A DNA stretch of 64,000 bases from positions 124,001 to 188,000 of the forward strand of contig WFMF01000315.1 in the NCBI GenBank assembly GCA_011033025.1, read 5' to 3'. Below, piece after piece: positions 56-53,200 of the stretch. The translations under genes and the position numbers were made by a program. Origin of the DNA: Beroe forskalii. Its lineage: Eukaryota; Ctenophora; Nuda; Beroida; Beroidae. Numbering within the stretch: position 1 is the first letter of the stretch; each line of letters opens with the position of its first letter. The notes below the pieces were generated by a model that saw only the letters and a list, made by a program, of their open reading frames with translations, had not been told where the DNA came from and searched no databases.

Positions 56-218
56 TAAGATTCCCCTGCCTGACATGTTGCAACACCTAACGGGAGGCAT
101 CACGGAGACGGTTAACTTGATGGGGTACGATGATGAGGGCCCTGAAGTGGATAACATGGGCTTCTATCTGGAGCAGTGCTTCCTCAAGAGGTCCCTGATC
201 CTGGCTACTGCTGTGCAG
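56..218 (+). CDS. Calpain exon: protease core, TGG segment
   Basis: Reads LPDMLQHLTGGITETVNL, then RSLILATAVQ just before the donor CAG|GTAAAT. This matches the calpain stretch with FTGG..E and the later GSLMGCSI-like strand. The acceptor ATCAG at 51-55 is the likely start but is inferred. The donor region is duplicated 59 bp downstream. Confidence 0.75.
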
Positions 219-3200
219 GTAAATTGGTGGAACTATTGGGTTATATTTGTAAACTGTTTATATTTTCTGCTGTGCAAGTAAATTGGTGGAACTATTGGGG
301 TATGTTTGTAAACTGTTTACATTTTCTTCCAGGAAATTATAAAATGTCTTTGGAGAATTATGTTTGACAGGTTGTCAACGTTTGACTATAATAACGGTTC
401 AAATGTTCCTATCGGACAGCTCTGTGATTTGCACCCCTTATTTCCAGGGCAAAGACAGCCTGATGCTGGGACTAGAGAGTGAGTTCCCGTACATCGTAAC
501 GAGAGTGAAGCGGAGAAACAGATCACACCCCTTTCTGGTGTGCCTGTACAGCCCCTTTGGCTACTGTCATTGGAGTGGCCCTTGGGGGAGAAAGTGAGGA
601 TTGCGTATTTTCCCTGCTTCCTTTTTCTATCTTTTTAATCTCCTTCATCTCTTTAATAGCAAGATAATACCTGCTTTGTACTTTGCTATAAAATACATAG
701 ACCCGCGTCTATCGGGTCTATTCTAATATAGAACCGATGAAAAGTGAAAGGTATCTATAAAATAGGTCTGAAATCTCCCCTCATTACTCATAACCTCGAA
801 ACACATCCCAGGTCCAAGGAATGGGATCACTACTCGTATGAAGATATCTACAACACCGGGCTTATTCACGAGTCCGACTACGACTTCTGGATATCGCTAG
901 CTGATGTTATGGTGTACTTTGAAACCCTGCACATCACGCATCAGGCTTTCGATAAGATCACAGGTATTATGGCGTGGGAAGTTTCCAACCTTATAGTCAA
1001 TGCACGGTCACCCGTCTCACTGAAAATAAATGGAAGGCGCTGACCCTGGCCACCTTGTATAAGGCAAAAGTCCTCCCGCCCCCTTCAGGATTATACTCCC
1101 ATCCCTATGGGAAAAGAATGGACTAATCCCCCCCCCCTTCAAGAATGGACTAATTTGTAATAAAGAACCTCCTTATTCCCCACCCCCATCCCAGCCCTAT
1201 CAAGAATAGACTTATTCCCAACCCTCAAGAATATACCCCTGGTCTCCCTGAGAATCGACTTAGAAGTTCGTATTATCCCCATCCCAGGAAGATTATGATT
1301 TATTCCCCCCCCTGAAGAAGTGACTTATCCCCCCCTGAAGAATCATCCCAGACCCCCCCCTGAAAGAAGAATAGTTCGACTACACCCCTGGATATTCCAG
1401 GGAAAGGAGATTATGACTAAATCCCCCTGAAGGTAGAGTTCTACAGTAAGTTCAGTATTCCCCCCTCAGGAGGATTATGACGATCCCCCCCCCCCTGAAG
1501 GTAGAGTTCTACGTAAGATCAGATTCCCAGGGAAAACTCAGGAGGATATGACTTATTCCCCCCCTGAAGGAAGGGTTTACAGTAAGTTCAGTATTTCCCC
1601 CACCCCTCAGGAGGATTATGACTAACTCCCCCCCCCTGAAGGTAGAGTTCTACAGTAAGTTCAGTATTCCCAGGGAACACTCAGGAGGATTATGACGTTA
1701 TCCCACCCCCCCTGAAGGTAGGGTTCTACAGTAAGTTCAGTATTCCCAGGGAACCCCTCAGGAGGATTATACAGTAGAGTTCTACAGTAAGTTCAGTATT
1801 CCCAGGGAACACCCAGGAGGATTATGATTAATTCCCCCCCCCCCCTGAAGGTAGAGTTCTACAGTAAGTTCAGTATTCCCAGGGAACACTCCCAGGAGGA
1901 TTATGATCCCACCCCCCCCTTGAAAGGAGAGTTCAGTAAGATCAGTATTCCAGGGAACACCCAGGAGGATTGACTTATTCCCCCTGAAGGTGGGGGTTCT
2001 ACAGTAAGTTCAGTATTCCCAGGGGAATACTCAGGAGGATAACTAACCCCAGGAGGAGTTCTACAGTAAGTTCAGTATTCCCCCACTCAGGAGGATTATG
2101 ACTTATTCCCCCCCCCTGAAGGTAGAGTTCTACAGTAAGTTCAGTATTCCCAGGGAACACTCAGGAGGATTATGACTTATTCCCCCCAGCCCCCTTAATA
2201 AAGGTAGAGTTCTACAGTAAGTTCAGTATTCCCAGGGAACACCCAGGAGGATTATGATTATTCCCCCCCCCCCTGAAGGTAGAGTTCTACAGTAGGTTCA
2301 GTATTCCAGGAACACTCAGGAGGATTATGACTTGATCCCCACCCCCCCTGAAGGTAGGAGTTCTACAGTAAGATCAGTATTCTAGGGAACACTCAGGAGG
2401 ATTATGACTTATTCCCCCCCCCTGAAGGTGAGTTCTACAGTAAGTTCAGTATTCCCCAGGAACACTCAGGAGGATTATGATTCCCACCCCCCCCCCTGAA
2501 GGTAGAGTTCTACAGTAAGTTCAGTATTCCCAGGGAACACTCAGGAGGATTATGACTTATTCCCCCCCCCCCCTGAAGGTAGAGTTCTACAGTAAGTTCA
2601 GTATTAGTATTCCCAGGAACACTCAGGAGGATTATGACCCCCCCAGCCCCTTAATAAAGGTAGAGTTCTACAGTAAGTTCAGTATTCCCAGGGAACACCC
2701 AGGAGGATTATGATTAATTCCCCCCTGAAGGTAGAGTTCTACAGTAAGTTCAGTATTCCCAGGGAATACTCAGGAGGATTATGACTTATTCCCCCCCACC
2801 CCTGAAGGTAGAGTTCTACAGTAAGTTCAGTATTCCCAGGGAACACTCAGGAGGATTATGACTTTGATCCCCCACCCCCTGAAGGTAGAGTTCTACAGTA
2901 AGTTCAGTATTCCCAGGGAACACTCAGGAGGATTATGACTTATTCCCCCCTGAAGGTAGAGTTCTACAGTAAGTTCAGTATTCCCAGGGAACACCCAGGA
3001 GGATTATGACTTAATCCCCCCCCCCTGAAGGTAGAGTTCTACAGTAAGTTCAGTATTTCCAGGGAACACCCAGGAGGATTATGACTTATCCCCCCCCCCC
3101 TGAAGGTAGAGTTCTACAGTAAGTTCAGTATTCCCAGGGAACACTCAGGAGGATTATGACGTTGATCCCAGCATCCTGACGTCAGTGAGGTGCGGTCTCT

Positions 3201-6200
3201 TTGGCAGCTGGATACGAGACAAGACTGACGGAGGAGCCCCCAATAATGTGAGATATTTATATTGCTCGTGGAATAACTACCTTATTAGGAGGTTTATTTA
3301 TAAAGGTTGTAATTTGGGGATTTTTCAGAAAAATCCCCATGATTTCACCCACCATGAAATTTCGAAATGACGTCATTATTATATGTTAACAAGAGTGATG
3401 ACTTGAAAAATCCCCATATTTTCAACCTATCAAAATTTGAAACATCGAAATTTCATCCCAAATAAATACACCACCTAAGGTAAATATAATTTTAGATGAT
3501 TGAAATAACCTTATTGGCCCTTATTATCAAGGACAAAATCCTCCATCTAGCAACCACTTGATCTGGCAACCACTAGAAACATTTTGTCCACGGGGCCAGT
3601 TAAAACGGTTCAAAAATGATTTCATTTTTGTCCATGGGGCCGGTTATAAAAAAGACCAGCTTAATAAAGGCCAATAAGTTAGTTTAATTTGCTAAATTTG
3701 TCATTGTATCGGTGTCACACACTCATTCAAGACAAATTGATGTTCGATGCATAGCCAAAAACTAAATTAACTAAATTAATAATTAACTAAATTCTTGTTT
3801 GATGGATAGCAAAATCTCAATAACTTAACTAGAAATTAGTAAGTTGACCATGCTCCCCTCCCAGGCTAAGTTCCTCCGGCTAAACACTCAGTACCTGATC
3901 ACGCAGACCTCTCAGAACGATCCCCTCTGTATGATATCCCTCGTTCAGAGGTTCAGGCCTCGCAACACCCCCCACGAGGGCTTCATGTGCATGGGATTCA
4001 CTGTCTTCAAGGTTAGATTCACTGTCTTCAAGGTTAGATTCACTGTCTTCAAGGTTAGATTCACTGTCTTCAAGGTTAGATTCACTGTCTTCAAGGTTAG
4101 ATTCACTGTCTTCAAGGTTAGATTTACTGTCTTCAAGGTTAGATTTACTGTCTTCAAGGTTAGATTCACTGTCTTCAAAGGTTAGATTCACTGTCTTCAA
4201 GGTTAGATTCACTGTCTTCAAGGTTAGATTCACTGTCTTCAAGGTTAGATTCACTGTCTTCAAGGTTAGATTCACTGTCTTCAAGGTTAGATTCACTGTC
4301 TTCAAGGTTAGATTCACTGTCTTCAAGGTTAGATTCACTGTCTTCAAGGTTAGATTCACTGTCTTCAAGGTTAGATTCACTGTCTTCAAGGTTAGATTCA
4401 CTGTCTTCAAGGTTAGATTCACTGTCTTCAAGGTTAGATTCACTGTCTTCAAGGTTAGATTCACTGTCTTCAAGGTTAGATTCACTGTCTTCAAGGTTAG
4501 ATTCACTGTCTTCAAGGTTAGATTCACTGTCTTCAAGGTTAGATTCACTGTCTTCAAGGTTAGATTTACTGTCTTCAAGGTTAGATTCACTGTCTTCAAG
4601 GTTAGATTCACTGTCTTCAAGGTTAGATTCACTGTCTTCAAGGTTAGATTCACTGTCTTCAAGGTTAGATTCACTGTCTTCAAGGTTAGATTTACTGTCT
4701 TCAAGGTTAGATTCACTGTCTTCAAGGTTAGATTCACTGTCTTCAAGGTTAGATTTACTGTCTTCAAGGTTAGATTCACTGTCTTCAAGGTTAGATTCAC
4801 TGTCTTCAAGGTTAGATTCACTGTCTTCAAGGTTAGATTCACTGTCTTCAAGGTTAGATTCACTGTCTTCAAGGTTAGATTTACTGTCTTCAAGGTTAGA
4901 TTCACTGTCTTCAAGGTTAGATTTACTGTCTTCAAGGTTAGATTTACTGTCTTCAAGGTTAGATTCACTGTCTTCAAGGTTAGATTCACTGTCTTCAAGG
5001 TTAGATTCACTGTCTTCAAGGTTAGATTTACTGTCTTCAAGGTTAGATTCACTGTCTTCAAGGTTAGATTCACTGTCTTCAAGGTTAGATTCACTGTCTT
5101 CAAGGTTAGATTCACTGTCTTCAAGGTTAGATTCACTGTCTTCAAGGTTAGATTCACTGTCTTCAAGGTTAGATTCACTGTCTTTCAAGGTTAGATTCAC
5201 TGTCTTCAAGGTTAGATTTACTGTCTTCAAGGTTAGATTTACTGTCTTCAAGGTTAGATTCACTGTCTTCAAGGTTAGATTCACTGTCTTCAAGGTTAGA
5301 TTCACTGTCTTCAAGGTTAGATTTACTGTCTTCAAGGTTAGATTTACTGTCTTCAAGGTTAGATTCACTGTCTTCAAGGTTAGATTCACTGTCTTCAAGG
5401 TTAGATTCACTGTCTTCAAGGTTAGATTCACTGTCTTCAAGGTTAGATTTACTGTCTTCAAGGTTAGATTCACTGTCTTCAAGGTTAGATTCACTGTCTT
5501 CAAGGTTAGATTCACTGTCTTCAAGGTTAGATTCACTGTCTTCAAGGTTAGATTCACTGTCTTCAAGGTTAGATTCACTGTCTTCAAGGTTAGATTTACT
5601 GTCTTCAAGGTTAGATTCACTGTCTTCAAAGGTTAGATTCACTGTCTTCAAGGTTAGATTCACTGTCTTCAAGGTTAGATTCACTGTCTTCAAGGTTAGA
5701 TTTACTGTCTTCAAGGTTAGATTTACTGTCTTCAAGGTTAGATTCACTGTCTTCAAGGTTAGATTCACTGTCTTCAAGGTTAGATTCACTGTCTTCAAGG
5801 TTAGATTCACTGTCTTCAAGGTTAGATTCACTGTCTTCAAGGTTAGATTCACTGTCTTCAAGGTTAGATTCACTGTCTTCAAGGTTAGATTCACTGTCTT
5901 CAAGGTTAGATTCACTGTCTTCAAGGTTAGATTCACTGTCTTCAAGGTTAGATTCACTGTCTTCAAGGTTAGATTCACTGTCTTCAAGGTTACGCTAGAT
6001 TCACTGTCTTCAAGGTTAGATTCACTGTCTTCAAGGTTAGATTCACTGTCTTCAAGGTTAGATTCACTGTCTTCAAGGTTAGATTCACTGTCTTCAAGGT
6101 TAGATTCACTGTCTTCAAGGTTAGATTCACTGTCTTCAAGGTTAGATTCACTGTCTTCAAGGTTAGATTCACTGTCTTCAAGGTTAGATTCACTGTCTTC

Positions 6201-9200
6201 AAGGTTAGATTCACTGTCTTCAAGGTTAGATTCACTGTCTTCAAGGTTAGATTCACTGTCTTCAAGGTTAGATTTACTGTCTTCAAGGTTAGATTTACTG
6301 TCTTCAAGGTTGGGATTCACTGTCTTCAAGGTTGTAAGGTTAGATTCACTGTCTTCAAGGTTAGATTCACTGTCTTCAAGGTTAGATTCACTGTCTTCAA
6401 GGTTAGATTCACTGTCTTCAAGGTTAGATTTACTGTCTTCAAGGTTAGATTCACTGTCTTCAAGGTTAGATTCACTGTCTTCAAGGTTAGATTCACTGTC
6501 TTCAAGGTTAGATTCACTGTCTTCAAGGTTAGATTCACTGTCTTCAAGGTTAGATTTACTGTCTTCAAGGTTAGATTCACTGTCTTCAAGGTTAGATTCA
6601 CTGTCTTCAAGGTTAGATTCACTGTCTTCAAGGTTAGATTCACTGTCTTCAAGGTTAGATTCACTGTCTTCAAGGTTAGATTTACTGTCTTCAAGGTTAG
6701 ATTCACTGTCTTCAAGGTTAGATTCACTGTCTTCAAGGTTAGATTCACTGTCTTCAAGGTTAGATTCACTGTCTTCAAGGTTAGATTCACTGTCTTCAAG
6801 GTTAGATTCACTGTCTTCAAAGGTTAGATTCACTGTCTTCAAGGTTAGATTTACTGTGTCTTCAAGGTTAGATTCACTGTCTTCAAGGTTAGATTCACTG
6901 TCTTCAAGGTTAGATTCACTGTCTTCAAGGTTAGATTCACTGTCTTCAAGGTTAGATTCACTGTCTTCAAGGTTAGATTCACTGTCTTCAAGGTTAGATT
7001 CACTGTCTTCAAGGTTAGATTCACTGTCTTCAAGGTTAGATTTACTGTCTTCAAGGTTAGATTACTGACTTCAAGGTTAGATTTACTGTCTTCAAGGTTA
7101 GATTACTGTTGTCAAGGTTAGATTCACTGTCTTCAAGGTTAGATAACTGTCTTCAAGGTTAGATTCACTGTTTTCAAGGTTAGATTTACTGTCTTCAAGG
7201 TTAGATTCACTGTCTTCAAGGTTAGATTCACTGTCTTCAAGGTTAGATTCACTGTCTTCAAGGTTAGATTCACTGTCTTCAAGGTTAGATTCACTGTCTT
7301 AGATTTACTGTCTTCAAGGTTAGATTTACTGTCTTCAAGGTTAGATTTACTGTCTTCAAGGTTAGATTCACTGTCTTCAGGGCAAGGTTAGATTCACTGT
7401 CTTCAAGGTTAGATTTACTGTCTTCAAGGTTAGATTCACTGTCTTCAAGGTTAGATTTACTGTCTTCAAGGTTAGATTCACTGTCTTCAAGGTTAGATTC
7501 ACTGTCTTCAAGGTTGATCTGTCTTCAAGGTTAGATTCACTGTCTTCAAGGTTAGATTCAGTACTGTCTTCAAGGTTAGATTTACTACATCTTCAAGGTT
7601 AGATTCACTGTCTTCAAGGTTAGATTCACTGTCTTCAAGGTGAGATTCACTGTCTTCAAGGTTAGATTACTGACTTCAAGGTTAGATTCACTGTCTTCAA
7701 GGTTAGATTTACTGTCTTTAAGGTTAGATTTACTGTCTTCAAGGTTAGATTTACTGTCTTCAAGGTTAGATTTACTGTCTTCAAGGTTAGATTCACTGTC
7801 TTCAAGGTTAGATTCACTGTCTTCAAGGTTAGATTCACTGTCTTCAAGGTTAGATTTACTGTCTTCAAGATTAGATTCACTGTCTTCAAGGTTAGATTCA
7901 CTGTCTTCAAGATTAGATTCACTGTCTTCAAGGTTAGATTCACTGTCTTCAAGGTTAGATTCACTGTCTTCAAGGTTAGATTCACTGTTTTCAAGGTTAG
8001 ATTCACTGTCTTCAAGGTTAGATTCACTGTCTTCAAGGTTAGATTCACTGTCTTCAAGGTTAGATTCACTGTCTTCTAGGTTAGATTACTGTATTCAAGG
8101 TTAGATTTACTGTCTTAGTGTCTTCTAGGTAAGGTTAGTAGGTTTACTGTCTTCTACAATCATGATTCATAGTTTGGATGAATTGATAGATGGATTTCAC
8201 TTTGACATAATTTCAGTCAGCAATTATTTGTAATGCATGATTTGTATAATTGGCAAATTATCATATCCTTGCAGATACGAAATACTTGCTTTCTTTTTTG
8301 ACAGGGTCACACTGATCGAATGACAGACATGATATCTTCCCCGCTAGGTGCCAGAAAACATCCAGTACCGACTCACGGACCTCAAAGACCCGCCCATCAT
8401 CATTGCCACTTACTCCTTCAACGAGAGTGTGACGGTCAAAGTGCACCTCGAACCAGGTGACCAGCTGCAGGGTGCTGTAAGAGTGGGTTTAGGATGCGTT
8501 TAGGGGCGTTTAGAGTGAGTTTTGGGGCATTTTAATACTTCGAGTGTGTTTTGGGTGGGTGTAGGACTCCTGCCATTGATCTAGATCCTGGTTATTGGTA
8601 TCATATAACCCATTCACCTCCCCAGGAAACTATGTGATCATACCTACGACGTACTATCCAGGAGTAACGGGGGAGTTCTTACTGAGGTGTATCAGTGCTC
8701 AGAACCTTCAGATCAGGTGGGTATCAGCTTTTATAGAACCAGGCATTCTATCGGTTGACAAAACAGGGGAGTATTTGGATGGGGATATGTCAGGCACATA
8801 AGCTGCTTCTTATATTATGCACACCCAGGTCTAATGCAGATCTAGTGCAGCACCTAACCTATACTAGATTACACCAAACTGACGTAACACCTGCATCTAT
8901 TAGTACAATGGACTGATCTATCATTACAACACTACAACTCTGTTCTGCAGGTTGTTGAAGTCTATCCCCCCGTCCATGACTAAGAAGCAGGTAGTGGACG
9001 TAGAGTTGGTGAAGGGGGAGAACCTCCCCAACATCAACAACATCTCTCCTGAAGGTATAACGTACATTATGTATTATGTACGTTTTATTACCCACGTACA
9101 ATTGTACAAATGGCGGTCTTGTGTAAATTTTAGAGGCGGTACTCAATTCTTGTGACATCTACATCACCCTCACTGAGTTATTACAGTAGGGTTAGTTGAG

Positions 9201-11860
9201 GCAAATCACTTTGCACCAGAAAAACTGCATGGACATGAATCTTGTGTTTGTGTTTGTGAGACTGAGGTTTATGATGTATATACATGTTTCCGTCTTCCAG
9301 GGAACCCTGAGGTGTATTGTGTGGTCCTGTGCGGGAAGGACAAGTGTAAACTCCCTGTTCGGCAAGGCTTCAACCCCATCTGGAACACTTCCGCAACCTT
9401 TCATGTCAAGAACCCTTACAACAAATCTATTAAAATTCAGGTTGGTGAATTGTTAGGGGGTCTTATGAAACCGTGACAATACTCGAAAAATTTCCAAAAA
9501 GCTTAACCCAAAAAACACAAAATAAACCAAAAAGCCAAGGCCCGGCCTACTATTCCGCTTCCTCGCCCCCCCCCCCCCCACCAAGATGACGTAGCCAGCT
9601 GATTTTTGATGATATATGCCAATGAGTAATGACTTGGCATCATAGTTTTTTAAAAGTCACGTGACTTAAATGTAACTTACACTTTATGTAGTATGGGGAT
9701 CGTACTGCAAGTTTCAAGCTGTGTTTTTGAAATCTGTAGTTGCAATTTTTGGGAATGAATGTAAGTCCCTTGAAAGAAATCACTTTGCTTGTAAATTCTC
9801 AGATTGGAATTAATTAAACACTCGATATAACACTAATTGTTAATAATAAGCAATATTATGGAATTTTGTCGAGCAATTTTGCATTAGCTAAAGTCACGGT
9901 ATAGTTGTTTTATCCACTGAGAGTCGGCGACTGCTGTCCAGTTTACCAGACGCACGAATAGCCACCACCCCACATGTTACACATCATTCCAACTCTGGTT
10001 ACCAGACGCAAGAGTAGCCACCACCCCACATGTTACACATCATTCCAACTCTGGAACACCTTGCTGCAGCCCCAGGACTGCAGCCACTCCTCTTAACTAC
10101 GCTGCCTTCTTCAGCTCCCTTCAACTTGAAGTATATCGCCTCCACGTCATCATCCACCTTCTCCAGCAAGCAGGCTCCAGAGACTGCTGAGATGAGCAGG
10201 AGCAGGACAGCGAACTTCATCATTCCTTCAGGAGGGGAGATTGTTAGTAATCACTAATCCTTCAGGAGGGGGGATTGTTAGTAATCACTAATCCTTCAGG
10301 AGGGGGATTGTTAGTAATCACTAATCCTTCAGGAGGGGGATTGTTAGTAATCACTAATCCTTCAGGAGGGGGGATTGTTAGTAATCACTAATCCTTCAGG
10401 AGGGGGGATTGTTAGTAATCACTAATCCTTCAGGAGGGGGATTGTTAGTAATCACTAATCCTTCAGGAGGGGGGATTGTTAGTAATCACTAATCCTTCAG
10501 GAGGGGGGATTGTTAGTAATCACTAATCCTTCAGGAGGGGGATTGTTAGTAATCACTAATCCTTCAGGAGGGGGATTGTTAGTAATCACTAATCCTTCAG
10601 GAGGATTGTTAGTAATCCTTCAGGAGGGGGGATTGTTAGTAATCACTAATCCTTCAGGAGGGGGATTGTTAGTAATCACTAATCCTTCAGGAGGGGGATT
10701 GTTAGTAATCACTAATCCTTCAGGAGGGGGATTGTTAGTAATCCAATCCTTCTAATCACCAATCCTTCAGGGGGGATTGTTAGTAATCACTAATCCTTCA
10801 GGAGGGGGATTGTTAGTAATCACTAAATCCTTCAGGGAGGGGGATTGTTAGTAATCACTAATCCTTCAGGAGGGGGGATTGTTAGTAATCACTAATCCTT
10901 CAGGAGGGGATTGTTAGTAATCACTAATCCTTCAGGAGGGGATTGTTAGTAATCACTAATCCTTCAGGAGGGATTGTTAGTAATCACTAATCCTTCAGGA
11001 GGGGATTGTTAGTAATCACTAATCCTTCAGGAGGGATTGTTAGTAATCACTAATCCTTCAGGAGGGGATTGTTAGTAATCACTAATCCTTCAGAGGGGGA
11101 TTGTTAGTAATCACTAATCCTTCAGGAGGGGATTGTTAGTAATCACTAATCCTTCAGGAGGGGATTGTTAGTAATCACTAATCCTTCAGGAGGGGATTGT
11201 TAGTAATCACTAATCCTTCAGGAGGGGGATTGTTAGTAATCACTAATCCTTCAGGAGGGGGATTGTTAGTAATCACTAATCCTTCAGGAGGGATTGTTAG
11301 TAATCACTAATCCTTCAGGAGGGGATTGTTAGTAATCACTAATCCTTCAGAGGGGGATTGTTAGTAATCACTAATCCTTCAGGAGGGGATTGTTAGTAAT
11401 CACTAATCCTTCAGGAGGGGATTGTTAGTAATCACTAATCCTTCAGGAGGGGATTGTTAGTAATCACTAATCCTTCAGGAGGGGGATTGTTAGTAATCAC
11501 TAATCCTTCAGGAGGGGGATTGTTAGTAATCACTAATCAGGAGGGGATTGTTAGTAATCACTAATCCTTCAGGAGGGGGATTGTTAGTAATCACTAATCC
11601 TTCAGGAGGGGATTGTTAGTAATCACTAATCCTTCAGGAGGGGGGATTGTTAGTAATCACTAATCCTTCAGGAGGGGGATTGTTAGTAATCACTAAAATT
11701 TAATTGGGAAATTCTTGTTTTATCGGGTCGACATTACTTTATAATAGATATTTCTATTAGAAGCTAACAATAAATTTCTCAGGATCATTACCAAGAAATC
11801 AGAGCTGGTGAACTCTCATTCGAGGAGGGAGCGGAGTTACGAGCTATCCTGGATTCCGCT
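56..11860 (+). CDS. Calpain-like protein with C2L and C2 domains (calpain-5/6/TRA-3 type), 5' part outside window
   Basis: Partial gene. Exons: 56-218, 448-593, 812-963, 3138-3247, 3865-4011, 8348-8456, 8626-8716, 8951-9054, 9301-9440 and possibly 11783-11860. All phases match, giving about 387 residues over the first nine exons. Order of domains: end of the papain-like protease core (TGG..E, then the PWG-like strand), calpain C2-like domain III, then a C-terminal C2 domain. That order without EF hands fits the calpain-5/6/TRA-3 group. The exon with the catalytic Cys lies upstream of the window. The catalytic His position reads Phe (GLESEFPYIV against the family's G-H-A-Y) and the Asn position reads Ser (YSPFG against N-P-W-G), so I infer a protein without protease activity. 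Calpain-6 is a known inactive relative. Two exon borders carry giant tandem arrays. Confidence 0.85.
208..326 (+). repeat. Two-copy 59-bp direct repeat over the donor of calpain exon 56-218
   Basis: Copies at 208-266 and 267-326. Each starts with CTGCTGTGCA and contains the donor (CAG|GTAAAT in copy 1, CAA|GTAAAT in copy 2) followed by the same intron start. A small example of the junction-copying pattern seen in the large arrays. Confidence 0.8.
448..593 (+). CDS. Calpain exon: substituted catalytic His/Asn region
   Basis: Acceptor TTTCCAG, donor AAA|GTGAGG, phase 0 in and 2 out. GLESEFPYIVTRV aligns with the family's GL-KGHAYSVTG strand, putting Phe where His is expected. LYSPFGYCHWSGPW aligns with IRNPWG-VEW-GPW, putting Ser where Asn is expected. 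The surrounding fold residues (G, Y, V, P, G, W, GPW) are kept. Confidence 0.8.
812..963 (+). CDS. Calpain exon: FW-SLxD motif at end of protease core
   Basis: DYDFWISLADVMVYFETLHI matches the calpain motif DGEFWMSFEDFLRHFTRLEI at the end of the protease domain. Only the acceptor CCCAG|G at 810-811 keeps phase 2 from the previous exon, so that start was chosen. Donor CAG|GTATTA. Confidence 0.8.
1060..3137 (+). repeat. Minisatellite of about 75 bp whose unit is the acceptor of calpain exon 4
   Basis: About 25 units, degraded and C-rich from 1060 to about 1430 and regular from there to the exon. Each unit contains GTAGAGTTCTACAGTAAGTT, then CAGTATTCCCAG, then GGAACACTCAGGAGGATTATG, which is the start of exon 3138-3247, then a C-homopolymer of variable length and TGAAG. 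A donor-like ACA|GTAAGT lies only about 20 bases before each acceptor. Confidence 0.9.
3138..3247 (+). CDS. Calpain exon: start of C2L domain III
   Basis: Reads into GLFGSWIRDKTDGGAPNN, the counterpart of the calpain G-W-RGSTAGGCRN motif. Phase 1 in, 0 out. The acceptor TTCCCAG|GG and the first coding bases (encoding roughly GNTQEDYD) are also present in every unit of the upstream tandem array, so about 25 alternative acceptors lie 5' of this one. Confidence 0.75.
3865..4011 (+). CDS. Calpain exon: C2L domain III, middle
   Basis: LNTQYLITQ, then CMISLVQRFRP and GFMCMGFTVFK, match the domain III pattern NPQY...L..LMQK.R.....IGF.VY. Acceptor CTCCCAG, phase 0 both ends. The exon ends GGATTCACTGTCTTCAAG followed by GTTAGA. 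That junction is the unit of the 21-bp array that follows. Confidence 0.85.
3994..8110 (+). repeat. Giant 21-bp minisatellite whose unit is the donor of calpain exon 5
   Basis: About 195 units of GTTAGATTCACTGTCTTCAAG, starting inside the last codons of the exon. Two main variants differ at one base (GATTCACTG or GATTTACTG). Single-base indels near 4179, 5184, 5629 and 6820 break the otherwise open frames. From about 7060 the array is degraded. Because the unit is a multiple of three and free of stops in several frames, long repetitive open frames appear on both strands. They are not genes. Confidence 0.95.
8348..8456 (+). CDS. Calpain exon: C2L domain III
   Basis: Reads VPENIQYRLTDLKD, then YSFNESVTVKVHLEP. 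Acceptor CCGCTAG, donor CCAG|GTGACC, phase 0 in and 1 out. It sits directly before the diagnostic YVIIP exon and continues the same frame. Confidence 0.75.
8626..8716 (+). CDS. Calpain exon: domain III YVIIPTTYxPG motif
   Basis: GNYVIIPTTYYPGVTGEFLL is the calpain domain III signature (G-YVIIPSTY-PG--GEFLLR). Acceptor CCCCAG, donor CAG|GTGGGT. Phase 1 in, 2 out. Confidence 0.9.
8951..9054 (+). CDS. Calpain exon: linker and first C2 strand
   Basis: Linker LLKSIPPSMTKKQ, then VDVELVKGENLPN, the first strand of a C2 domain (V.V..G.NLP). Phase 2 in, 1 out. An inverted copy lies at 40694-40797. Confidence 0.8.
9301..9440 (+). CDS. Calpain exon: C2 domain core
   Basis: NPEVYCVVLCGKDKCKLPV, then GFNPIWNTSATFHV, match the C2 pattern DPYV.V...K.KT.V....NP.WN..F.F.V. 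Several acidic calcium ligands of classical C2 domains are absent, so calcium binding is doubtful. Phase 1 in, 0 out. An inverted copy lies at 40289-40428. Confidence 0.85.
9852..9857. other. Empty insertion site of the foldback element
   Basis: The left inverted arm reads GCAATATTATGG here. The right arm carries the 3.5-kb foldback element at the same place, flanked by copies of AATATT. This dates the insertion after the inverted duplication. Confidence 0.7.
9945..10060 (-). repeat. 56-bp tandem repeat over the 3' end of the peptide gene, copy A (about 2 units)
   Basis: The unit covers the last codons (third and fourth Cys, Trp), the stop codon and a few bases beyond. Only about two units here, against six in the inverted copy at 35947-36273. 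Confidence 0.8.
9999..10223 (-). CDS. Secreted four-cysteine prepropeptide, copy A
   Basis: 74 residues. Hydrophobic N-terminal signal (MMKFAVLLLLISAVSG), acidic propeptide, dibasic Lys-Arg, then a mature peptide of about 29 residues with cysteines spaced C-x7-C-x6-C-x8-C and a Gly-rich loop with Trp and Tyr. The layout is that of a processed secreted peptide (hormone, antimicrobial or venom-like). No family is recognised and I assign no activity. The start codon follows an AG|GA acceptor-like site that is the unit of the neighbouring array. A copy with one substitution in the signal (Val to Ile) is at 35769-35993. Confidence 0.7.
   Translation of the reverse strand: MMKFAVLLLLISAVSGACLLEKVDDDVEAIYFKLKGAEEGSVVKRSGCSPGAAARCSRVGMMCNMWGGGYSCVW
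10224..11695 (-). repeat. 33-34-bp minisatellite with TACTAAC branch-point-like motif and AG acceptor
   Basis: About 44 units. Read on the minus strand, each is TTAGTGATTACTAACAATCC, then a run of C, then TCCTGAAG|GA. That is a textbook 3' splice region: TACTAAC, pyrimidine tract, AG. The last unit abuts the ATG of the peptide gene. Variation is mainly in the length of the C run. The inverted copy near 35700-35768 has only two units. Confidence 0.9.
11783..11860 (+). CDS. Possible further calpain exon (or exon of an SH3-type protein)
   Basis: Open exon with acceptor TTTCTCAG and donor GCT|GTGAGT, phase 0 at both ends, so it could follow calpain exon 9301-9440 in frame. The reading DHYQEIRAGELSFEEGAE resembles the ELSF-GDEL stretch of SH3 domains more than a C2 strand. 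Assignment to the calpain is therefore uncertain. Confidence 0.4.
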
Positions 11861-12591: not shown

Positions 12592-15500
12592 CTGAGGATA
12601 GTCTATGGTTTTTCTTTTGGGGGCACTGGAGATGCTGGCATCCGGGCATGCAATTTTGAAATTTTTTCATGACTCTCAGTTTAGTCTGAAAAGACGAAAA
12701 CTGGTGACTTTTTTCAACTTATGATGGAGTAAGTAAAATCCAGCATCCTAGGTTGGGTCTGCACCATCTTCAAAAGAAAAACCTTAGAATAGTCTCGACA
12801 TTGGGGGATCTGGGGAGCGCTATCAGCAGATTGCGCAGCGTTACGTTCACAAACTCAAAGTCTCTTTCTAACGCTACTTTGATTGTAGGAGGGAGGGTCA
12901 GATTCATCTTAAAGGTGGGAGTGATGCTGGAGTCGAGGCCAGCTGAGGTGGATTTCCGGCGACTGCGTTTGGAGCGTTTGTTGGAGGGAGGCGGGATCGC
13001 TTTGTCGTATTGGGCTTTCAGGGCCAGGTTTTCAGGGGTTATGGGCAGCACGAGGTTCTCTGTGACCCACCTGGGACGAGGGCTGGTGATGTTAAATACG
13101 GGATTTGTGGGGGTTTGTAAGGTTGAATTAGGGATTGGTAGGGTTTGTAAGGTCAAATATGGGATTGACAGGGGCTGGTAATGGTAAATATGGCAGCTTT
13201 CTTCAAATAAAATCAAATCAAATACCTTATTCCAGTTTATTTTATCATTTATAAATACATAAAGCTCATTTTCAAATTTATGACGAGGGACATTTAAAAC
13301 TATCTTCGTTCCGTGGAATGTTGAGAAGATTCAGAACTCACCGATCATTTCTGTGTCCCCAGTTCTGGAAGTGAACATGGTAAATGGGCTGCAATATGCC
13401 GTCTTTCCTCCCCTGTTCACCCTTTACTGATGACTTAACGGTACTTTCTGATGCGGCCTCGCTCTCTGAAACGATTAAACGTTTAAATTTCCTTTTAACT
13501 TCAATCTCTTGAGTAAAATTGACCAATTGCTATCATGTTGAATTTTAAAGAATTAAATAGCAGAAAATGCGCAAAATAAGAGCTAAAATTTCAGTAGCAG
13601 CAAAAAGTAACATAAAACCCAATTGATGCGACCACGGTTCCTGTTTTTTCACCTTGTGCCGTGGGATCATTCTCCCATCCCCCTGATTTCTTGTGCTCCA
13701 CCTCACTCTCCTCCTCTCCGAACTTCCCTACCACGTCCTCGTGATCAATATCCTACGGGAATGAGGTGTCATTCTTACTACTCGTGATCAATATCCAACG
13801 GGGATGAGGTGTAATTCTTACTCCTCGTGATCAATATCCTACGGGGATGAGGTGTAATTCTTACTCCTCGTGATCAATATCCTACGGGGATGAGGTGTAA
13901 TTCTTACTCCTCGTGATCAATATCCTACGGGGATGAGGTGTTATTCTTACTCCTCGTGATCAATATCCTACGGGGTTGAGGTGTTATTCTTACTCCTCGT
14001 GATCAATATCCTACGGGGATGAGGTGTAATTCTTACTCCTCGTGATCAATATCCTACGGGGATGAGGTGTTATTCTTACTCCTCGTGATCAATATCCTAC
14101 GGGGTTGAGGTGTTATTCTTACTCCTCGTGATCAATATCCTACGGGGATGAGGTCAGAGGTGTTATTCTTACTCCTCGTGATCAATATCCTACGGGGTTG
14201 AGGTGTTATTCTTACTCCTCGTGATCAATATCCTACGGGGATGAGGTCAGAGGTGTTATTTTTACTCCTCGTGATCAATATCCTACGGGGTTGAGGTGTT
14301 ATTGGACATGTTCATTTCAGTCTGGTCATTTTTTCCCACTCCAAATTTAGCCAAAATTCGTTTTATGGCCATAAAAATGCAAATTTCTTACCAAATGTCT
14401 TCAAACTCTAGGATATGATGCAAACAGTAGATAGGAAGGTTTCTTTACCATCACATATTGAGAATAATGTTGTTAGGCTATGCAAATGCAAAAAATGTAA
14501 CTTTCTGTTATTTTGCTATCACGTCCATTTTAAACAACATCAACTCAGTTTTTTAAAAATTGGGCTCATATACCCCTTGCATGTAGTCCTATGTATAAAG
14601 GGTCAGGTTATCTGATAGTTAAATGGTCAATTCAGTCAATTTTGTAACATGGCCTAATTTAGGTCAACTTATAATTTTCTAATTGATTATATCAGTTGAA
14701 ACTTTGTGAATAATCACATATTTGGTTGTTATAAAGATAATTTATCATTAGACTTCAATGAAATGTATTGTTTGGCCAGAAAAAGACAATTATGTAACAA
14801 AATATGTGTAAGTTAATGTAGACATTTAAAAATTGAAATTGATGGTAGCATTATTAATAATGTTGTTGTTAATACCACTTACAAAGAAATTATGAGGAAA
14901 ATAATTGGTTAATAGGCTCATTTCAGCCAATTTTGTAACAAAATTTTGTTACAAAACTTGCAATATTTAGCCATTTAATGGAATTAGAATCATCAAAATT
15001 CAAAAATATGCTACAGTACATTCTAATAATGGTTTTCAAGTACAAAAGGGCTTCAGATAACAATTTTGTAACAACTAAATAAATGATTTGTTACAAAATT
15101 TGCATTTTTTGGCCAGATATATCAACTATTGTTACAAAATTTGCTCATCATGGAACCACAAAAGCAATCTTAACATGTTTTGTTAGCAACAATTAGTATA
15201 CCTCAACGTGTAACCAGGTAATAATTGGATTTATATGGACATGTATTTCACTATACCAGAAAGTAGGTGTTACAAAACTTGCAATATTAGCCATTCAATG
15301 GAATTAGAATCATCCAAATTCAAAAATATGCTACAGTACATTCTTCTAATGGTTTTTAATTACAAAACGGCTTGGGATAACAATTTTGTAACAACTTAAT
15401 AAACCATTTGTTACAAAATTTGCATTTTTTGGCCAGATATCACAAATATTGTTACAAAATTGTTATCACAAATATAATCTACACAAATATACTCCACTTT

Positions 15501-36273: not shown

Positions 36274-36377
36274 ACACTTCATCGGACAGCAGTCGCCGAC
36301 TCTCAGTGGATAAAACAACTATACCGTGACTTTTGTTAATGCAAAATTGCTCGACAAAATTCCATAATATTAGTAAG

Positions 36378-39300: not shown

Positions 39301-39867
39301 AATCGATTTCTCGTGTCAAAAAACCTAGGATTCGAGTATAATGATGACCTAATTGAAGACGTATAATTACTTCAGATTTTCGGCCATAATATTGATGCTC
39401 AAAAGTGGGCGTGGTCCGAAATGCCCAAAATATTTGTTTTAGCGTTTAGAAAATAGCTTTAATCGATTTCTCGTGCCAAAAAACCTAGGATTCGAGTATA
39501 ATCATGTCCTAGTTTATATCATATGAAAACTTACGATTTTCGGCCATAATTTTGATGACAATAAGTGGGCGTGGCCCATAATGACCAAAATATTGGTTCT
39601 AGGACCTAGATTTTGGTTTTAAACGATTTCTCGTGCCGAAAAACATTGGGTTAGAGCATAATCATGCCCTAGTTGCTTTTGAATAAATTTTAAATAATTT
39701 TTCTTCAAAATTCCCACGGTCAAAAAAGGGCGTGGCCAACCAGAGGGTTCCGGGCATCGAAAATTTGAATAAATTTTTTTTGGTGGCTCTAGACACCTAT
39801 TAGAGTCCATTGAGCCACTAAAACCTTAGTAAGGAATTTTTTCGCAGGCATTCCACATGATTCCCTT
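36378..39867. mobile_element. Foldback-type element, copy 1 (about 3.5 kb)
   Basis: Ends AGTAAGGGAAT / ATTCCCTTACT. About 1 kb at each end consists of tandem units of about 155 bp in opposite orientation in the two halves, sharing ACTCGAATCCTAGGTTTTTT, GAGAAATCGATTAAAGCAAT, GGACCACGCCCACTTTTTGG and ATTATGGCCGAAAATCTGAA. A unique centre (about 37420-38450) has no transposase. The left inverted arm (9852) has the empty site, and flanks repeat AATATT. Copy 2 at 45889-48949 is in the opposite orientation. Confidence 0.85.
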
Positions 39868-40288
39868 ACTAATATTGCTTATCATTTACAATTAGTGTTA
39901 TATCGAGTGTTTAATGAATTCCAATCTGAGAATTTACAAGCAAAGTGATTTCTTTCAAGGGACTTAAATTCATTCCAAAAATTGCAACTACAGATTTCAA
40001 AAACACAGCTTGAAACTTGCAGTACGATCCCCATACTACATAAAGTGTAAGTTACATTTAAGCCACGTGACTTTTAAAAAACTATGATGCCAAGTCATTA
40101 CTCATTGCCATATATCATCAAAAGTCAGCTGGCTACGTCATCTTGGTGGGGGGGGGGGAGGGGCGAGGAAGCGGAATAGTAGGCCGGGCCTCGGCTTTTT
40201 GGTTTATTTTGTGTTTTTTGGGTTAAGCTTTTTGGAAATTTTTCGAGTATCGTCACGGTTTCAAAAGACCCCCTAACAATTCACCAAC

Positions 40289-40428
40289 CTGAATTTTAAT
40301 AGATTTGTTGTAAGGGTTCTTGACATGAAAGGTTGCGGAAGTGTTCCAGATGGGGTTGAAGCCTTGCCGAACAGGGAGTTTACACTTGTCCTTCCCGCAA
40401 AGGACCACACAATACACCTCAGGGTTCC
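40289..40428 (-). pseudogene. Inverted partial copy of the calpain C2 core exon
   Basis: Same 140-bp exon as 9301-9440 with intact frame and splice sites. Without upstream protease exons it is likely a non-functional fragment, although nothing in the exon itself is broken. Confidence 0.75.
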
Positions 40429-40693
40429 CTGGAAGACGGAAACATGTTTATTACTATTAGTGGTAAACTTCAGTCTCGCAAACAACATCAGATTCATGTC
40501 CATCTAGTTTTTCTGGTGCAAAGTGATTTGCCTCAACTAACCCAATGAAGGCGATGTAGATGTCTCAATTTTTGGGGACAGCCTCTAAAATTTAGACAAG
40601 ACCGCCATTTGTACAATTGTACGTGGGTAATGCTATCTTATAAAAGTATAAAGTATAAAGCGTACATGACAAATAATATTTTGTACGTTATAC

Positions 40694-40797
40694 CTTCAGG
40701 AGCGATGTTGTTGATGTTGGGGAGGTTCTCCCCCTTCACCAACTCTACGTCCACTACCTGCTTCTTAGTCATGGACGGGGGGATGGACTTCAACAAC
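40694..40797 (-). pseudogene. Inverted partial copy of the calpain linker/C2 exon
   Basis: Counterpart of 8951-9054, with one Ser to Ala change near the end. Splice sites are kept. Homology to the left arm stops near 40925, where a LINE fragment begins. Confidence 0.75.
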
Positions 40798-40925
40798 CTG
40801 TAAGACAGAGTCAGTTGTAGTGTTGTACTAATAGATCAGTCCATTGTACTAATAGATGCAGGTGTTACGTCAGTTTGGTGTAATCTAGTACAGGTTAGGT
40901 GCTGCATTAGCTCTGCATTAAAACC

Positions 40926-47200: not shown

Positions 47201-50200
47201 GCCTGTACTATAGGCTATTGCTATATGCCTGTACGACAGGCCATTTCTATTGCGACGAATGTCATTATACCTTAGATTATAGCCGTATATTTACTATGAC
47301 AGATCGTGCACATTGCACAAATGCTTTTGATTGACACGAGGACCTCGTAAGTAGAGATGGCCAGTAAGCTATTAATGATTTGTCTAGATATGTTACCATT
47401 TATGACACTACATACCACGCTATGTACCGTCTAGTTGGCGTAGCTATGTATACTGTATAACTAAATACACGCGAGGTCCTATACAGCTTTCTCCTCCACC
47501 CTTCAGATCGTAATGTATTTCTGATTCTAAAATTCAGCTTTGATATTATGACGAAGATGGCTGCTACAATTGCCATGAGCCTCCAGCAAAATCTACGGTG
47601 CAATGACTTGATAGTTCCATCTTTGCATGAACATTGTAGAAAACTCCCAAGAAGGTGCTTAACTTGAAGTAAGATAAATCTCCTCTCATAAGTCATGCCG
47701 AATTTCACCTCTGGAGACTGTGGACTGCCTATCCCTCAAAAGGGCTGATAAGCTACTGTGAATGAGTATCCAACAGCACAGAGTCCCTGCCACCATTGAA
47801 GAACTATATCTACATACTCCTAGAAGTCGACTTGTTGTCAACTGCACGACCATGGCCAACAGCTTCGTGACAAATGTGAGCGTATCACAATAGACTAAAG
47901 TTATGTTCAAATATTTTAATATTAAAGTGTTTATATATCTTAATCTATTTCGCATGCCAGAAAACAAATGTTTAGACTTAGAGTATAAATATGTAAATAT
48001 GGTCCTATATGCGAATTCCCAAAATATTGAACTCAGCGTTTAGATTCCCCGCTTAACCTAGAAGTTGAGTATAATCATGGCCTAGTATTAAATACATATA
48101 ATAACTTCAGATTTTCAGCCATAACATTGATGTGAAAAAGTGGGCGTGGTCCAAAATGCCCAAAATATTGGTGTAAGCGTTTTGACAATTGCTTAAATCG
48201 ATTTCTCGAGCCAAAATACCTAGGATTCGAGTATAATCATGCCCTAGTAACTAGTTGGACATATATAATAAATTAATAACTTCAGATTTTCGGCCATAAT
48301 ATTGATGCCAAAAAGTGGGCGTGGTCCAAAATGCACAAAATAGTGGTGAAAGCGTTATAAAAAATTGCTTTAATCGATTTCTCGTGCCAAAATACCTAGG
48401 ATTCGAGTATAATCATGCCCTAATTGATGACGTATAATAACTTCAGATTTTCGGCCATAATATTGATGCCCAAAAGTGGGCGTGGCCCGAAATGCCCAAA
48501 ATATTATTTTTAGCGTTTGGAAAATAGCTTTAATCGATTTCTCGTGCCAAAAAACCTAAGATTCGAGTATAATCATGTCCTAGTTTATATCATATGAAAA
48601 CTTGCGATTTTCGGCCATAATTTTGATGACAATAAGTGGGCGTGGCCCATAATGACCAAAATATTGGTTCTAGGACCTAGATTTTGGTTTTAAACGATTT
48701 CTCGTGCCGAAAAACATTGGGTTAGAGCATAATCATGCCCTAGTTGCTTTTGAACAAATTTTTAACAATTTTTCTTGAAAATTCCCACGGTCAAAAAAGG
48801 GCGTGGCCAATCAGAGGGTTCCGGGCATCGAAAATTTGAATAAATTTTTTTGGTGGCTCTAGACACCTATTAGAGTCAATTGAGCCACTAAAACCTTAGT
48901 AAGGAATTTTTTTGCAGATACCCTACATATAACAATATAATTCCCTTACTAGTGTCAGCATTTGTAAGTTTGTATGTTTGTGTCTTGTCAGTGCAAGGCG
49001 GTGTCAGCATTTGTAAGTTTGTAAGTTTGTATGTTTGTATCTTTTCAGTGCAAGGCGGTGTACGAGAGGGCGTGTTTTGAGGCTGACAAGAGTTCGGAAG
49101 TGTTGCAGCAGAACATGACCCAACCCCACAAGAAGGTGGACCAGCTAAAAGCGAAGATGAAGACCTGCAGACAAGCTGCTGAGACTGCAGGTATAGAGTT
49201 GCTAGGTTACTAGACGAGACTGCAGGTATCTAGAGTTGCTAGGTTACTAGACCTGCAGACAAGCTGCTGAGACTGCAGGTATCTAGAGTTGCTAGGTTAC
49301 TAGACCTGCAGACAAGCTGCTGAGACTGCAGGTATCTAGAGCTGCAGACCTGCAGACAAGCTGCTGAGACTGCAGGTATCTAGAGTTGCTAGGTTACTAG
49401 ACCTGCAGACAAGCTGCTGAGACTTGCAGGTACTATCTAGAGTTGCTAGGTTACTAGACCTGCAGACAAGCTGCTGAGACTGCAGGTATCTAGAGTTGCT
49501 AGGTTACTAGACCTGCAGACAAGCTGCTGAGACTGCAGGTATCTAGAGTTGCTAGGTTACTAGACCTGCAGACAAGCTGCTGAGACTGCAGGTATCTAGA
49601 GTTGCTAGGTTACTAGACCTGCAGACAAGCTGCTGAGACTGCAGGTATCTAGAGTTGCTAGGTTACTAGACCTGCAGACAAGCTGCAGGGTATCTAGAGT
49701 TGCTAGGTTACTAGACCTGCAGACAAGCTGCTGAGACTGCAGGTATCTAGAGTTGCTAGGTTACTAGACCTGCAGACAAGCTGCTGAGACTGCAGGTATC
49801 TAGAGTTGCTAGGTTACTAGACCTGCAGACAAGCTGCTGAGACGGTATCTAGAGTTGCTAGGTTACTAGACCTGCAGACAAGCTGCTGAGACTGCAGGTA
49901 TCTAGAGTTGCTAGGTTACTAGACCTGCAGACAAGCTGCTGAGACTGCAGGTATCTAGAGTTGCTAGGTTACTAGACCTGCAGACAAGCTGCTGAGACTG
50001 CAGGTATCTAGAGTTGCTAGGTTACTAGACCTGCAGACAAGCTGCTGAGACTGCAGGTATCTAGAGTTGCTAGGTTACTAGACCTGCAGACAAGCTGCTG
50101 AGACTGCAGGTATCTAGAGTTGCTAGGTTACTAGACCTGCAGACAAGCTGCTGAGACTGCAGGTATCTAGAGTTGCTAGGTTACTAGACCTGCAGACAAG

Positions 50201-53200
50201 CTGCTGAGACTGCAGGTATCTAGAGTTGCTAGGTTACTAGACCTGCAGACAAGCTGCTGAGACTGCAGGTATCTAGAGTTTACTAGACCTGCAGACAAGC
50301 TGCTGAGACTGCAGGTATCTAGAGTTGCTAGGTTACTAGACCTGCAGACAAGCTGCTGAGACTGCAGGTATCTAGAGTTGCTAGGTTACTAGACCTGCAG
50401 ACAAGCTGCTGAGACTGCAGCAGGTATCTAGAGTTGCAGTGCTGGTTACTAGACCTGCAGACAAGCTGCTGAAGTTGCTAGGTTGACCTGCAGACAAGCT
50501 GCTGAGACTGCAGGTATCTAGAGTTGCTAGGTTACTAGACCTGCAGACAAGCTGCTGAGACTGCAGGTATCTAGAGTTGCTGAGACTGCAGGTATCTAGA
50601 GTTGCTAGGTTACTAGACCTGCAGACAAGCTGCTGAGACTGCAGGTATCTAGAGTTGCTAGGTTACTAGACCTGCAGACAAGCTGCTGAGACTGCAGGTA
50701 TCTAGAGTTGCTAGGTTACTAGACCTGCAGACAAGCTGCTGAGACTGCAGGTATCTAGAGTTGCTAGGTTACTAGACCTGCAGACAAGCTGCTGAGACTG
50801 CAGGTATCTAGAGTTGCAGGTTAACCTGCAGACAAGCTGCTGAGACTGCAGGTATCTAGAGTTGCTAGGTTACTAGACCTGCAGACAAGCTGCTGAGACT
50901 GCAGGTATCTAGAGTTGCTAGGTTACTAGACCTGCAGACAAGCTGCTGAGACTGCAGGTATCTAGAGTTGCTAGGTTACTAGACCTGCAGACAAGCTGCT
51001 GAGACTGCAGGTATCTAGAGTTGCTAGGTTACTAGACCTGCAGACAAGCTGCTGAGACTGCAGGTATCTAGAGTTGCTAGGTTACTAGACCTGCAGACAA
51101 GCTGCTGAGACTGCAGGTATCTAGAGTTGCTAGGTTACTAGACCTGCAGACAAGCTGCTGAGACTGCAGGTATCTAGAGTTGCTAGGTTACTAGACCTGC
51201 AGACAAGCTGCTGAGACTGCAGGTATCTAGAGTTGCTAGGTTACTAGACCTGCAGACAAGCTGCTGAGACTGCAGGTATCTAGAGTTGCTAGGTTAGTTA
51301 CTAGACCTGCAGACAAGCTGCTGAGACTGCAGGTATCTAGAGTTGCTAGGTTAGACCTGCAGACAAGCTGCTGAGACTGCAGGTATCTAGAGTTGCTAGG
51401 TTACTAGACCTGCAGACAAGCTGCTGAGACTGCAGGTATCTAGAGTTGCTAGGTTACTAGACCTGCAGACAAGCTGCTGAGACTGCAGGTATCTAGAGTT
51501 GTTACTAGGTTAGACAAGCTGCTGAGACTGCAGGTATCTAGAGTTGCCTGAGACAAGCTGCAGGTATCTAGAGTTGCTAGGTTACTAGACCTGCAGACAA
51601 GCTGCTGAGACTGCAGGTATCTAGAGTTGCTAGGTTACTAGACCTGCAGACAAGCTGCTGAGACTGCAGGTATCTAGAGTTGCTAGGTTACTAGACCTGC
51701 AGACAAGCTGCTGAGACTGCAGGTATCTAGAGTTGCTAGGTTACTAGACCTGCAGACAAGCTGCTGAGACTGCAGAGTTGCTAGGTTACTAGACCTGCAG
51801 ACAAGCTGCTGAGACTGCAGGTATCTAGAGTTGCTAGGTTCCTAGACCTGCAGACAAGCTGCTGAGACTGCAGGTATCTAGGTATCTAGACCTGTTGCTG
51901 AGGTTACTATCTAGACCTGCAGACAACAAGCTGCTGAGACTGCAGGTATAGAGTTGCTAGGTTACTAGACCTGCAGACAAGCTGCTGAGACTGCAGGTAT
52001 CTAGAGTTGCTAGGTTACTAGACCTGCAGACAAGCTGCTGAGACTGCAGGTATCTAGAGTTGCTAGGTTACTAGACCTGCAGACAAGCTGCTGAGACTGC
52101 AGGTATTTAGAGTTGCTAGGTTACTAGACCTGCAGACAAGCTGCTGAGACTGCAGGTATCTAGAGTTGCTAGGTTACTAGACCTGCAGACAAGCTGCTGA
52201 GACTGCAGGTATCTAGAGTTGCTAGGTTACTAGACCTGCAGACAAGCTGCTGAGACTGCAGGTATCTAGAGTTGCTAGGTTACTAGACCTGCAGACAAGC
52301 TGCTGAGACTGCAGGTATTGAGTTGCTAGGTTACTAGACCTGCAGACAAGCTGCTGAGACTGCAGGTATCTAGAGTTGCTAGGTTGCTAGGTTACCAGAG
52401 TTGCTAGGTTACCAGAGTTGCTAGGTTACCAGAGTTGCTAGGTTACTAGACCTGCAGACAAGCTGCTGAGACTGCAGGTACAGAGTTACTAAGTTAATAG
52501 ACCTGCAGACAAGCTGCTGAGACTGCAGGTACAGAGCTGCTGAGACTGCAGGTATCTAGAGTTGCTAGGTTACAAGAGTTGCTAGGTTGCCAGAGTTGCT
52601 AGGTTACCAGAGTTGCTAGGTTGCTAGGTTACCAGAGTTGCTAGGTTGCTAGGTATGGTTGCCAGGTTCCTAAGAGTTGCTAGGTTACTAGGTTAAAGAG
52701 TACTTGGTTACTAGGTTACTAGAGCACTAGGTTACTAGGTTACCAGAATTGCTAGGTTACTGGAGTACTTGAGTACTAAGTTACTAGAGTACTTGGTTAC
52801 TAGGTTACTAGAGTACTGGGTTTCTAGAGTACTAGGTTACTAGACTACTGAGTTTCTAGAGTACTAGAGTACTGGGTTACTAGGTTACTAGGTTACTGAG
52901 TTACTATAGGTTACTAGGTTACAAGAGTAATGGGTAACTATGTTCTTAGGTTACTGGGTTACTAAATACTAGGTTACCAGAGTACAATGTTACTAGGTTA
53001 CTATGTTACTATGTTACTTGGTTACTAAGTTTCTAGAGTACTAGGTTACTAGACTACTGAGTTTCGAGAGTACTAGAGTACTGGGTTACTAGGTTACTAG
53101 GTTACTGAGTTACTAGGTTACTAGGTTACCTGGGGTTACTAGGTTACTGGATTACTAGGATACTAGGTTACCTGGGGTTACTAGGTAACGAGGTTACTGG

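Follow-up and report, generated by a model that had tools for sequence, protein, structure and literature searches.

Within a 64,000-nucleotide stretch of the Beroe forskalii genome (contig WFMF01000315.1, here C376, positions 124001-188000; hereafter the window, from an assembly of 216 Mb in 1134 contigs), the introns of a calpain homologue, a PSTPIP gene and an MSL3-like gene carry long tandem arrays. These arrays are minisatellites whose repeat unit happens to span a splice junction, as in the "mirages" of amphioxus; the kind of structure is thus already known, and it is recurrent in this genome. The best explanation, to which we assign a probability of about 0.62, is that short duplications arise at random, are tolerated when they span an exon border, and then expand.

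Splice junctions lie within the repeat units

Arrays were called by Tandem Repeats Finder (TRF), and exon borders were inferred from protein homology, phase, open frame and splice signals (table 1). A sequence-only reading of the window had described five large arrays built from host exon-intron junctions, and all five were recovered by TRF at the tabulated extents, with the 53-bp array given as 49216-52531; this row starts 25 nucleotides (nt) past the donor, and the donor-spanning first unit was read from the sequence. The two smaller cases, at the calpain exon 1 donor and the PSTPIP exon 4 acceptor, are likewise present with two copies each. That the unit is a host junction holds by homology or phase for the calpain exon 4 acceptor, the calpain exon 5 donor and the PSTPIP exon 4 donor, and by open frame and phase for the MSL3-like gene, but the array of a peptide gene only abuts a predicted acceptor.

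Table 1. Border-associated arrays and an inserted element in the window (a slash marks the exon-intron border; L009 adjoins the window on its upstream side)
Feature	Position	Strand	Unit or border sequence	Details
Calpain acceptor array, 32 bp, 3' tail	1..48	+	GTTTAACGGTTGCTATAACA/ACCCTTTTACAG	About 26 copies, bulk upstream in L009 at 9205-10000
Calpain exon 1 donor duplication, 59 bp x 2	208..327	+		Exon end 218; 11 exonic nt
Calpain exon 4 acceptor array, 75 bp, about 23 copies	1423..3160	+	ATTCCCAG/GGAACACTCAGGAGG	Last intron base 3137; 23 exonic nt per unit
Calpain exon 5 donor array, 21 bp, about 196 periods	3995..8116	+	TTCACTGTCTTCAAG/GTTA	Exon end 4011; 17 exonic nt per unit
Peptide array, 32-33 bp, 45 units	10224..11696	-	TACTAAC and CTCCTGAAG/GA	Upstream of the peptide exon
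MSL3-like exon 2 acceptor array, 43 bp, exon-proximal block	13736..14303	-	CCCCGTAG/GATATTGATCACGAGG	Exon start 13752
Terminal inverted repeat (TIR) element, about 2.5 kb	14304..16817	.	Inverted ends ggacatgttcatttcagtctggtc...	Read from the sequence; splits the 43-bp array
43-bp array, intron-distal block, 27 copies	16818..17987	-		TRF
PSTPIP exon 4 acceptor region, two copies	48954..49052	+	TTTTCAG/TGCAAGGCGGTGT	
PSTPIP exon 4 donor array, 53 bp	49164..52551	+	CTGCTGAGACTGCAG/GTATCT	Exon end 49190; 26 exonic nt per unit; next exon 53293

The calpain exons, joined across the window and L009, are colinear with M-calpain (residues 11-420, E-value 3.8e-47). The 21-bp array starts in the exon ending FTVFK and runs into the intron; the next exon begins VPEN, and the join GFTVFK/VPEN is covered by the M-calpain alignment. 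At exon 4 that alignment is gapped and the border is set mainly by phase: the exon at the end of the 75-bp array starts (G)NTQEDYD, and its phase agrees with the preceding exon, which ends at 963. L009, read as part of the same gene, holds acceptor-spanning arrays of 45 bp x 24 and of 32 bp x 26, the latter being the one that ends in the window. Two other arrays of L009 are one of 43 bp x 6, which spans the acceptor of an open-frame exon that has a strong donor and lacks a Pfam match, and one of 20 bp x 22, which starts at a donor without exonic sequence. PSTPIP exons 4-5 match PSTPIP1 (E-value 6.5e-5).

In the MSL3-like gene, the 43-bp array reaches 17 nt into the predicted exon 2, whose border is based on open frame, AG and phase 0; the flanking exons match the Pfam MSL3_chromo-like and MRG families, and no second half of the chromo domain was recognised. 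The array is found on both sides of the TIR element, and it was therefore long before the insertion. The peptide array extends only about 2 nt past a predicted acceptor without homology support, and its region could be 5' untranslated sequence.

The arrays share a common anatomy. Ten units decomposed by hand contain 14-35 nt of exon each, and in the cases read the intact exon keeps the extra copies on its intron side. Both border types are hit, with donors in the calpain, PSTPIP, dimethylglycine dehydrogenase (DMGDH) and PTP-domain genes and acceptors in the calpain, MSL3-like, DMGDH and PTP-domain genes (for the DMGDH and PTP-domain genes see below). For calpain, PSTPIP and DMGDH the borders lie inside the unit and are placed by homology and phase in both flanking exons. 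Unit length is a multiple of three in 3 of the 10 units and not in the other 7; with lengths so mixed modulo three, the arrays as a class are not protein repeats.

Splice signals are kept in most copies: AGGT is present in 181/184 counted units of the 21-bp array, some of whose copies have one extra base, and in all 58 counted units of the 53-bp array, and the acceptor AG is retained in 39 of 40 units of the 43-bp array. Such near-universal retention accords with homogenisation by exchange better than with selection on single copies. The 75-bp array is more decayed, since only about 15-16 of its 23 cores keep the full acceptor string.

Border arrays recur in unlinked genes

A DMGDH gene in L023, which matches a solved DMGDH with an E-value of 4.4e-48, carries two donor arrays (34 bp x 5; 90 bp x 23) and one acceptor array (45 bp x 2.8); a two-copy duplication at an acceptor, now diverged, was recognised by eye. 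One intron of a PTP-domain gene in L033 combines a 115-bp donor duplication with a 43-bp x 2.8 acceptor array. Both genes are on contigs other than that of the window. L014 has a 30-bp x 52 array over the donor of a predicted first coding exon, an exon defined by its open frame only. Large arrays internal to introns are also present (21 bp x 40 in L010, 26 bp x 33 in L020 and 43 bp x 11.5 in L033).

Copy number differs between paralogues. Two tandem TPR genes in L010 (3594-4174 and 6705-8077) hold about 6 versus about 80 half-units of one repeat in matching introns with flanks 91-93% identical, and in the longer copy the repeat ends 6 nt before the acceptor; this is, to judge from the sequence, an expansion caught between paralogues. 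The PSTPIP exon 4 copies have 64 versus 61 donor copies. The second of these exons is inverted and lies in L011 (C376, 188902-193202) with its own 53/159-bp array. An inverted duplication of the peptide gene (9943-10293 versus 35699-36049, 97% identical) starts inside the peptide array. The contrast of 45 against 2 copies was considered as proof of expansion and rejected, because a duplicate that starts within the array may simply be truncated. At the end of the peptide coding sequence, a 56-bp repeat including the stop codon has 2 copies at 9943-10054 versus 6 at 35938-36273.

Samples and counting rules

The placement tests cover tandem repeats with a TRF score of 60 or more and a unit of at least 12. 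An array was taken to span a border if it included 6 or more exonic nt, and the null was random placement of the unit in the intron after subtraction of the extra copies. The sample outside the window has two parts. The first consists of 35 introns from TCP1 and PTP genes located through Pfam, of which a script resolved 34 and one was set by hand: 45 introns were attempted, 5 were not resolved, 6 weak ones were dropped and 34 kept, and one L033 intron was added by hand after its repeats had been noticed. L033 had been chosen solely because a multi-exon PTP domain is present. The second part, with stretches picked by position (L010, L012-L026) and borders set by codon score, contributes 12 introns, or 13 after a split, and two more were not resolved. 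L010 and L012 are on the contig of the window, and L023, chosen by number only, is on another.

In the codon-score set, one weak-site L020 intron was dropped along with its repeats (45 bp x 1.9 and 17 bp x 2.1), and the split concerns an L023 intron, divided by an exon taken from the list of array candidates. The arrays of L010, L020 and L023 were known before the borders were set; the border script itself ignores arrays, and the codon scan passed over frames mostly covered by them. L009-L026 contain 46 arrays, of which only those inside resolved introns were counted. Those left uncounted include the L014 30 bp x 52 array (its exon was found beside the array), a 19 bp x 111 array of L020 that lies 20-25 nt from a predicted donor, a 39 bp x 16 array of L010, the L018 arrays, and a 53 bp x 2.9 array of L023. 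For the L023 90-bp array, the TRF row used begins within the intron; that the array spans the border was seen in the sequence itself, and a second TRF row covers the exon end. L009, two L023 arrays and the TCP1/PTP set were also combined into a mixed set, from which the 43 bp x 6 array of L009 was omitted for want of an upstream exon. The array tables behind all placement tests were compiled by hand from the TRF and border results.

Outside the window, spanning is about as frequent as random placement predicts

The sequence-only reading had argued that random minisatellites should rarely start at exon borders. This premise fails, because the introns are only a few hundred bp long once the extra copies are subtracted (116-784 bp for the 13 arrays of the outside sample). 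A randomly placed unit spans a border with a probability of 0.015-0.63 for these 13 arrays, and of 0.015-0.66 per array over all the sets, and we therefore rejected the idea that chance seldom places an array on a border. In the outside sample, 5 of 13 span a border where 2.86 are expected (P 0.117), and a threshold of at least 1 exonic nt gives 6 against 3.30 (P 0.068). It should be said that 3 of the 5 spanning arrays rely on an exon or intron added after the repeat was noticed; the sample minus the three by-hand cases has 2/10 spanning (expected 1.79, P 0.57). In the TCP1/PTP set by itself, 2/6 span against 1.75 expected. Divided by size, 2 of 6 arrays with at least 5 copies span (expected 1.07), as do 3 of 7 with fewer (expected 1.79). 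That spanning outside the window is about as frequent as under random placement is counted in favour of a random origin followed by tolerance. Of the earlier proposal, the sequence of tolerance and then expansion fits the observations, but the excess over chance that went with it is not demonstrated by these counts.

Larger figures come from sets that share a bias. The mixed set has 6/11 arrays spanning (expected 2.80, P 0.026), and with the window arrays this becomes 11/19 (expected 4.07, P 0.0002). Neither is proof of an excess, because the genes were noticed through their arrays: L009 belongs to the calpain gene of the window, and the L023 gene came to notice next to its arrays. In a count that is free of the repeat finder, exon-terminal 14-mers (up to 2 mismatches) recur in the adjacent intron at 7/95 junctions (3/70 and 4/25), five of which are known arrays; 14-mers taken 32-80 nt inside the exon recur in the intron in 4/380 cases (0/280 in the TCP1/PTP set, 4/100 in the codon-score set).

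Origin of the arrays

Under the explanation that we prefer, a short tandem duplication would arise at a random place in a gene. A duplication lying wholly within an exon would alter the protein and usually be lost; one in an intron, or across a donor or acceptor, could leave the mRNA unchanged. A duplication over a border would be tolerated because the copy beside the exon body is a complete splice site and the extras leave with the intron, so that selection would serve as the filter and presumably only the exon-proximal site would be used. Slippage or unequal exchange would then expand and homogenise the tolerated duplication, leaving the intron side with as many as almost 200 decoy splice sites that are all but identical.

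Several observations weigh against this account. In the 32-bp calpain array most copies have CAGG at the acceptor, the exon-proximal one CAAG, and both this CAAG copy and the preceding one are, as read, out of frame with the upstream exon; the CAAG copy could reflect an assembly or allelic error, or a gene that is no longer under selection. Proximity to borders is a further point. All 13 outside arrays span a border or lie within 50 nt of one (expected 7.63, P 0.0002), and the same holds for 10/10 arrays minus the by-hand cases (expected 5.59, P 0.0009) and for 8/8 minus L023 (expected 5.40, P 0.029). Within 20 nt the count is 9/13 (expected 5.03, P 0.017), or 6/10 minus the by-hand cases (P 0.08) and 5/8 minus L023 (P 0.23). 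This proximity hints at a bias toward borders without demonstrating one, and we treat it as a lead only, because the 50-nt and 20-nt distances were chosen post hoc and the arrays are clustered in few genes (5 of the 13 in the L023 gene, 3 in L033). Proximity, like the 11/19 spanning arrays obtained with the window included, would be expected if transcription-time breaks or R-loops at junctions seeded the duplications, with arrays starting there beyond what placement predicts. Spanning alone, however, is without excess outside the window, there is none among the seeds of fewer than 5 copies, and the 20-nt result is weak, and we consider such splice-linked seeding unlikely. The remaining counter-evidence concerns size: with the window included, 8/11 arrays of at least 5 copies span (expected 1.87) and only 3/8 of the shorter ones do (expected 2.20), and without it the large arrays of the mixed set still give 4/6 (expected 1.31, P 0.014). 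The excess in long but not short arrays agrees with random seeding followed by biased expansion, in which arrays that contain exon are kept homogeneous by reseeding from the selected exon-proximal copy and so grow and last longer. Yet the large arrays outside the window show no clear excess, and large internal arrays are present in L010, L020 and L033; this alternative seems to us rather improbable.

Two other explanations concern the reading of the copies themselves. If the copies were used as alternative donors or acceptors, adding in-frame repeats or microexons, the arrays might be kept by selection; the three units divisible by three (21 and 45 bp in calpain, 45 bp in DMGDH) read as open, and most copies of the 21-, 43- and 53-bp arrays retain their signal. 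The seven units of other lengths and the extra-base copies of the 21-bp array speak against such use, as does amphioxus, where mirages leave splicing undisturbed by RT-PCR according to the excerpted text of PMC3087553, and we find it very improbable. Misplaced exon ends, which would turn the arrays into ordinary intronic or coding repeats, are conceivable where borders are based on open frames only, as for the peptide and MSL3-like genes, but hardly credible for the set as a whole, given that the calpain, PSTPIP and DMGDH borders follow from homology and phase on either side of the intron. Random duplication with tolerance at borders and later expansion thus stands as the preferred explanation.

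Comparison with known systems

The amphioxus mirages, as set out in the excerpted reports, are minisatellites of exon/intron boundaries in Adh3, the globins BflGb6/BflGb9, troponin C and PGBD5; they occur at 5' and 3' borders, many units carry splice signals, splicing is reported as undisturbed, and a link to intron gain has been proposed (PMC3087553, PMC3902484). The Beroe arrays resemble them in a unit with exonic and intronic sequence (the peptide array excepted), in affecting both border types and in mostly keeping AG or GT. They differ in scale: the same excerpts give, where copy numbers are stated, 2-7 copies with units of 10-160 bp, whereas a single border here carries as many as about 196 copies over 4 kb, and one gene holds several arrays. 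A search for GFP-family members gave no match, which speaks weakly against a lancelet as host, the control having been silent too. Minisatellite expansion at exon-intron borders also changes intron structure in human segmental duplications (excerpt of PMC2812944); there, as far as that excerpt goes, the border repeats alter coding sequence or splicing in recent paralogues, whereas the arrays described here appear to leave the coding sequence unaltered. Tandem copies of splice signals likewise result when introns are gained by tandem duplication of AGGT (PMC4974935, PMC2891723, PMC3443670); there the duplication within an exon creates a new intron, whereas the copies described here lengthen introns. 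Intron arrays of earthworm metallothionein were considered as a parallel and set aside, since the excerpt of PMC12783039 does not describe them as border-spanning. A literature search, superficial and therefore weak, recognised no further lineage with the same structure.

Loci of this kind are natural experiments on splice-site choice, each offering dozens to nearly 200 near-identical, evenly spaced donors or acceptors, a single one presumably being used. The acceptor arrays are especially telling: transcription reaches the decoys ahead of the real site, so that a first-come rule would break down and exon definition would succeed. The arrays also illustrate a way for introns to lengthen and point to places where new introns or exons could originate, and a genome rich in them would permit a statistical test of the mirage idea, which has until now concerned few lancelet genes. 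A more far-reaching possibility, doubtful but not negligible in our judgement, is that in an animal other than the lancelet exon borders act genome-wide as sites of minisatellite birth or growth beyond the effects of intron length and selection, so that very many genes would carry rows of decoys from which the spliceosome picks the exon-adjacent site.

Additional observations

Compared with M-calpain, the calpain homologue reads GTPL for GDCW, EFPY for GHAY and YSPF for RNPW, so that the catalytic residues are absent, and the product is probably a pseudoprotease; one database relative shows 56% identity over 40% of the query. Its 3' exons are present in an inverted duplication (window 8832-9858 versus 39870-40920, 91%). 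In L022 (6926-7235), a predicted intron has the same 12 nt (CCTACTCAACAG) before the donor and at the acceptor end, with a margin of 2.1, so that either the intron was gained by duplication or the border is misplaced. An element containing 160-bp tandem repeats is present twice in the window, at 36371-39871 and 45884-48951, in inverted orientation and with up to 97% identity, and another 161-bp repeat family (window 60281-61129) is also found in L015, on another contig.

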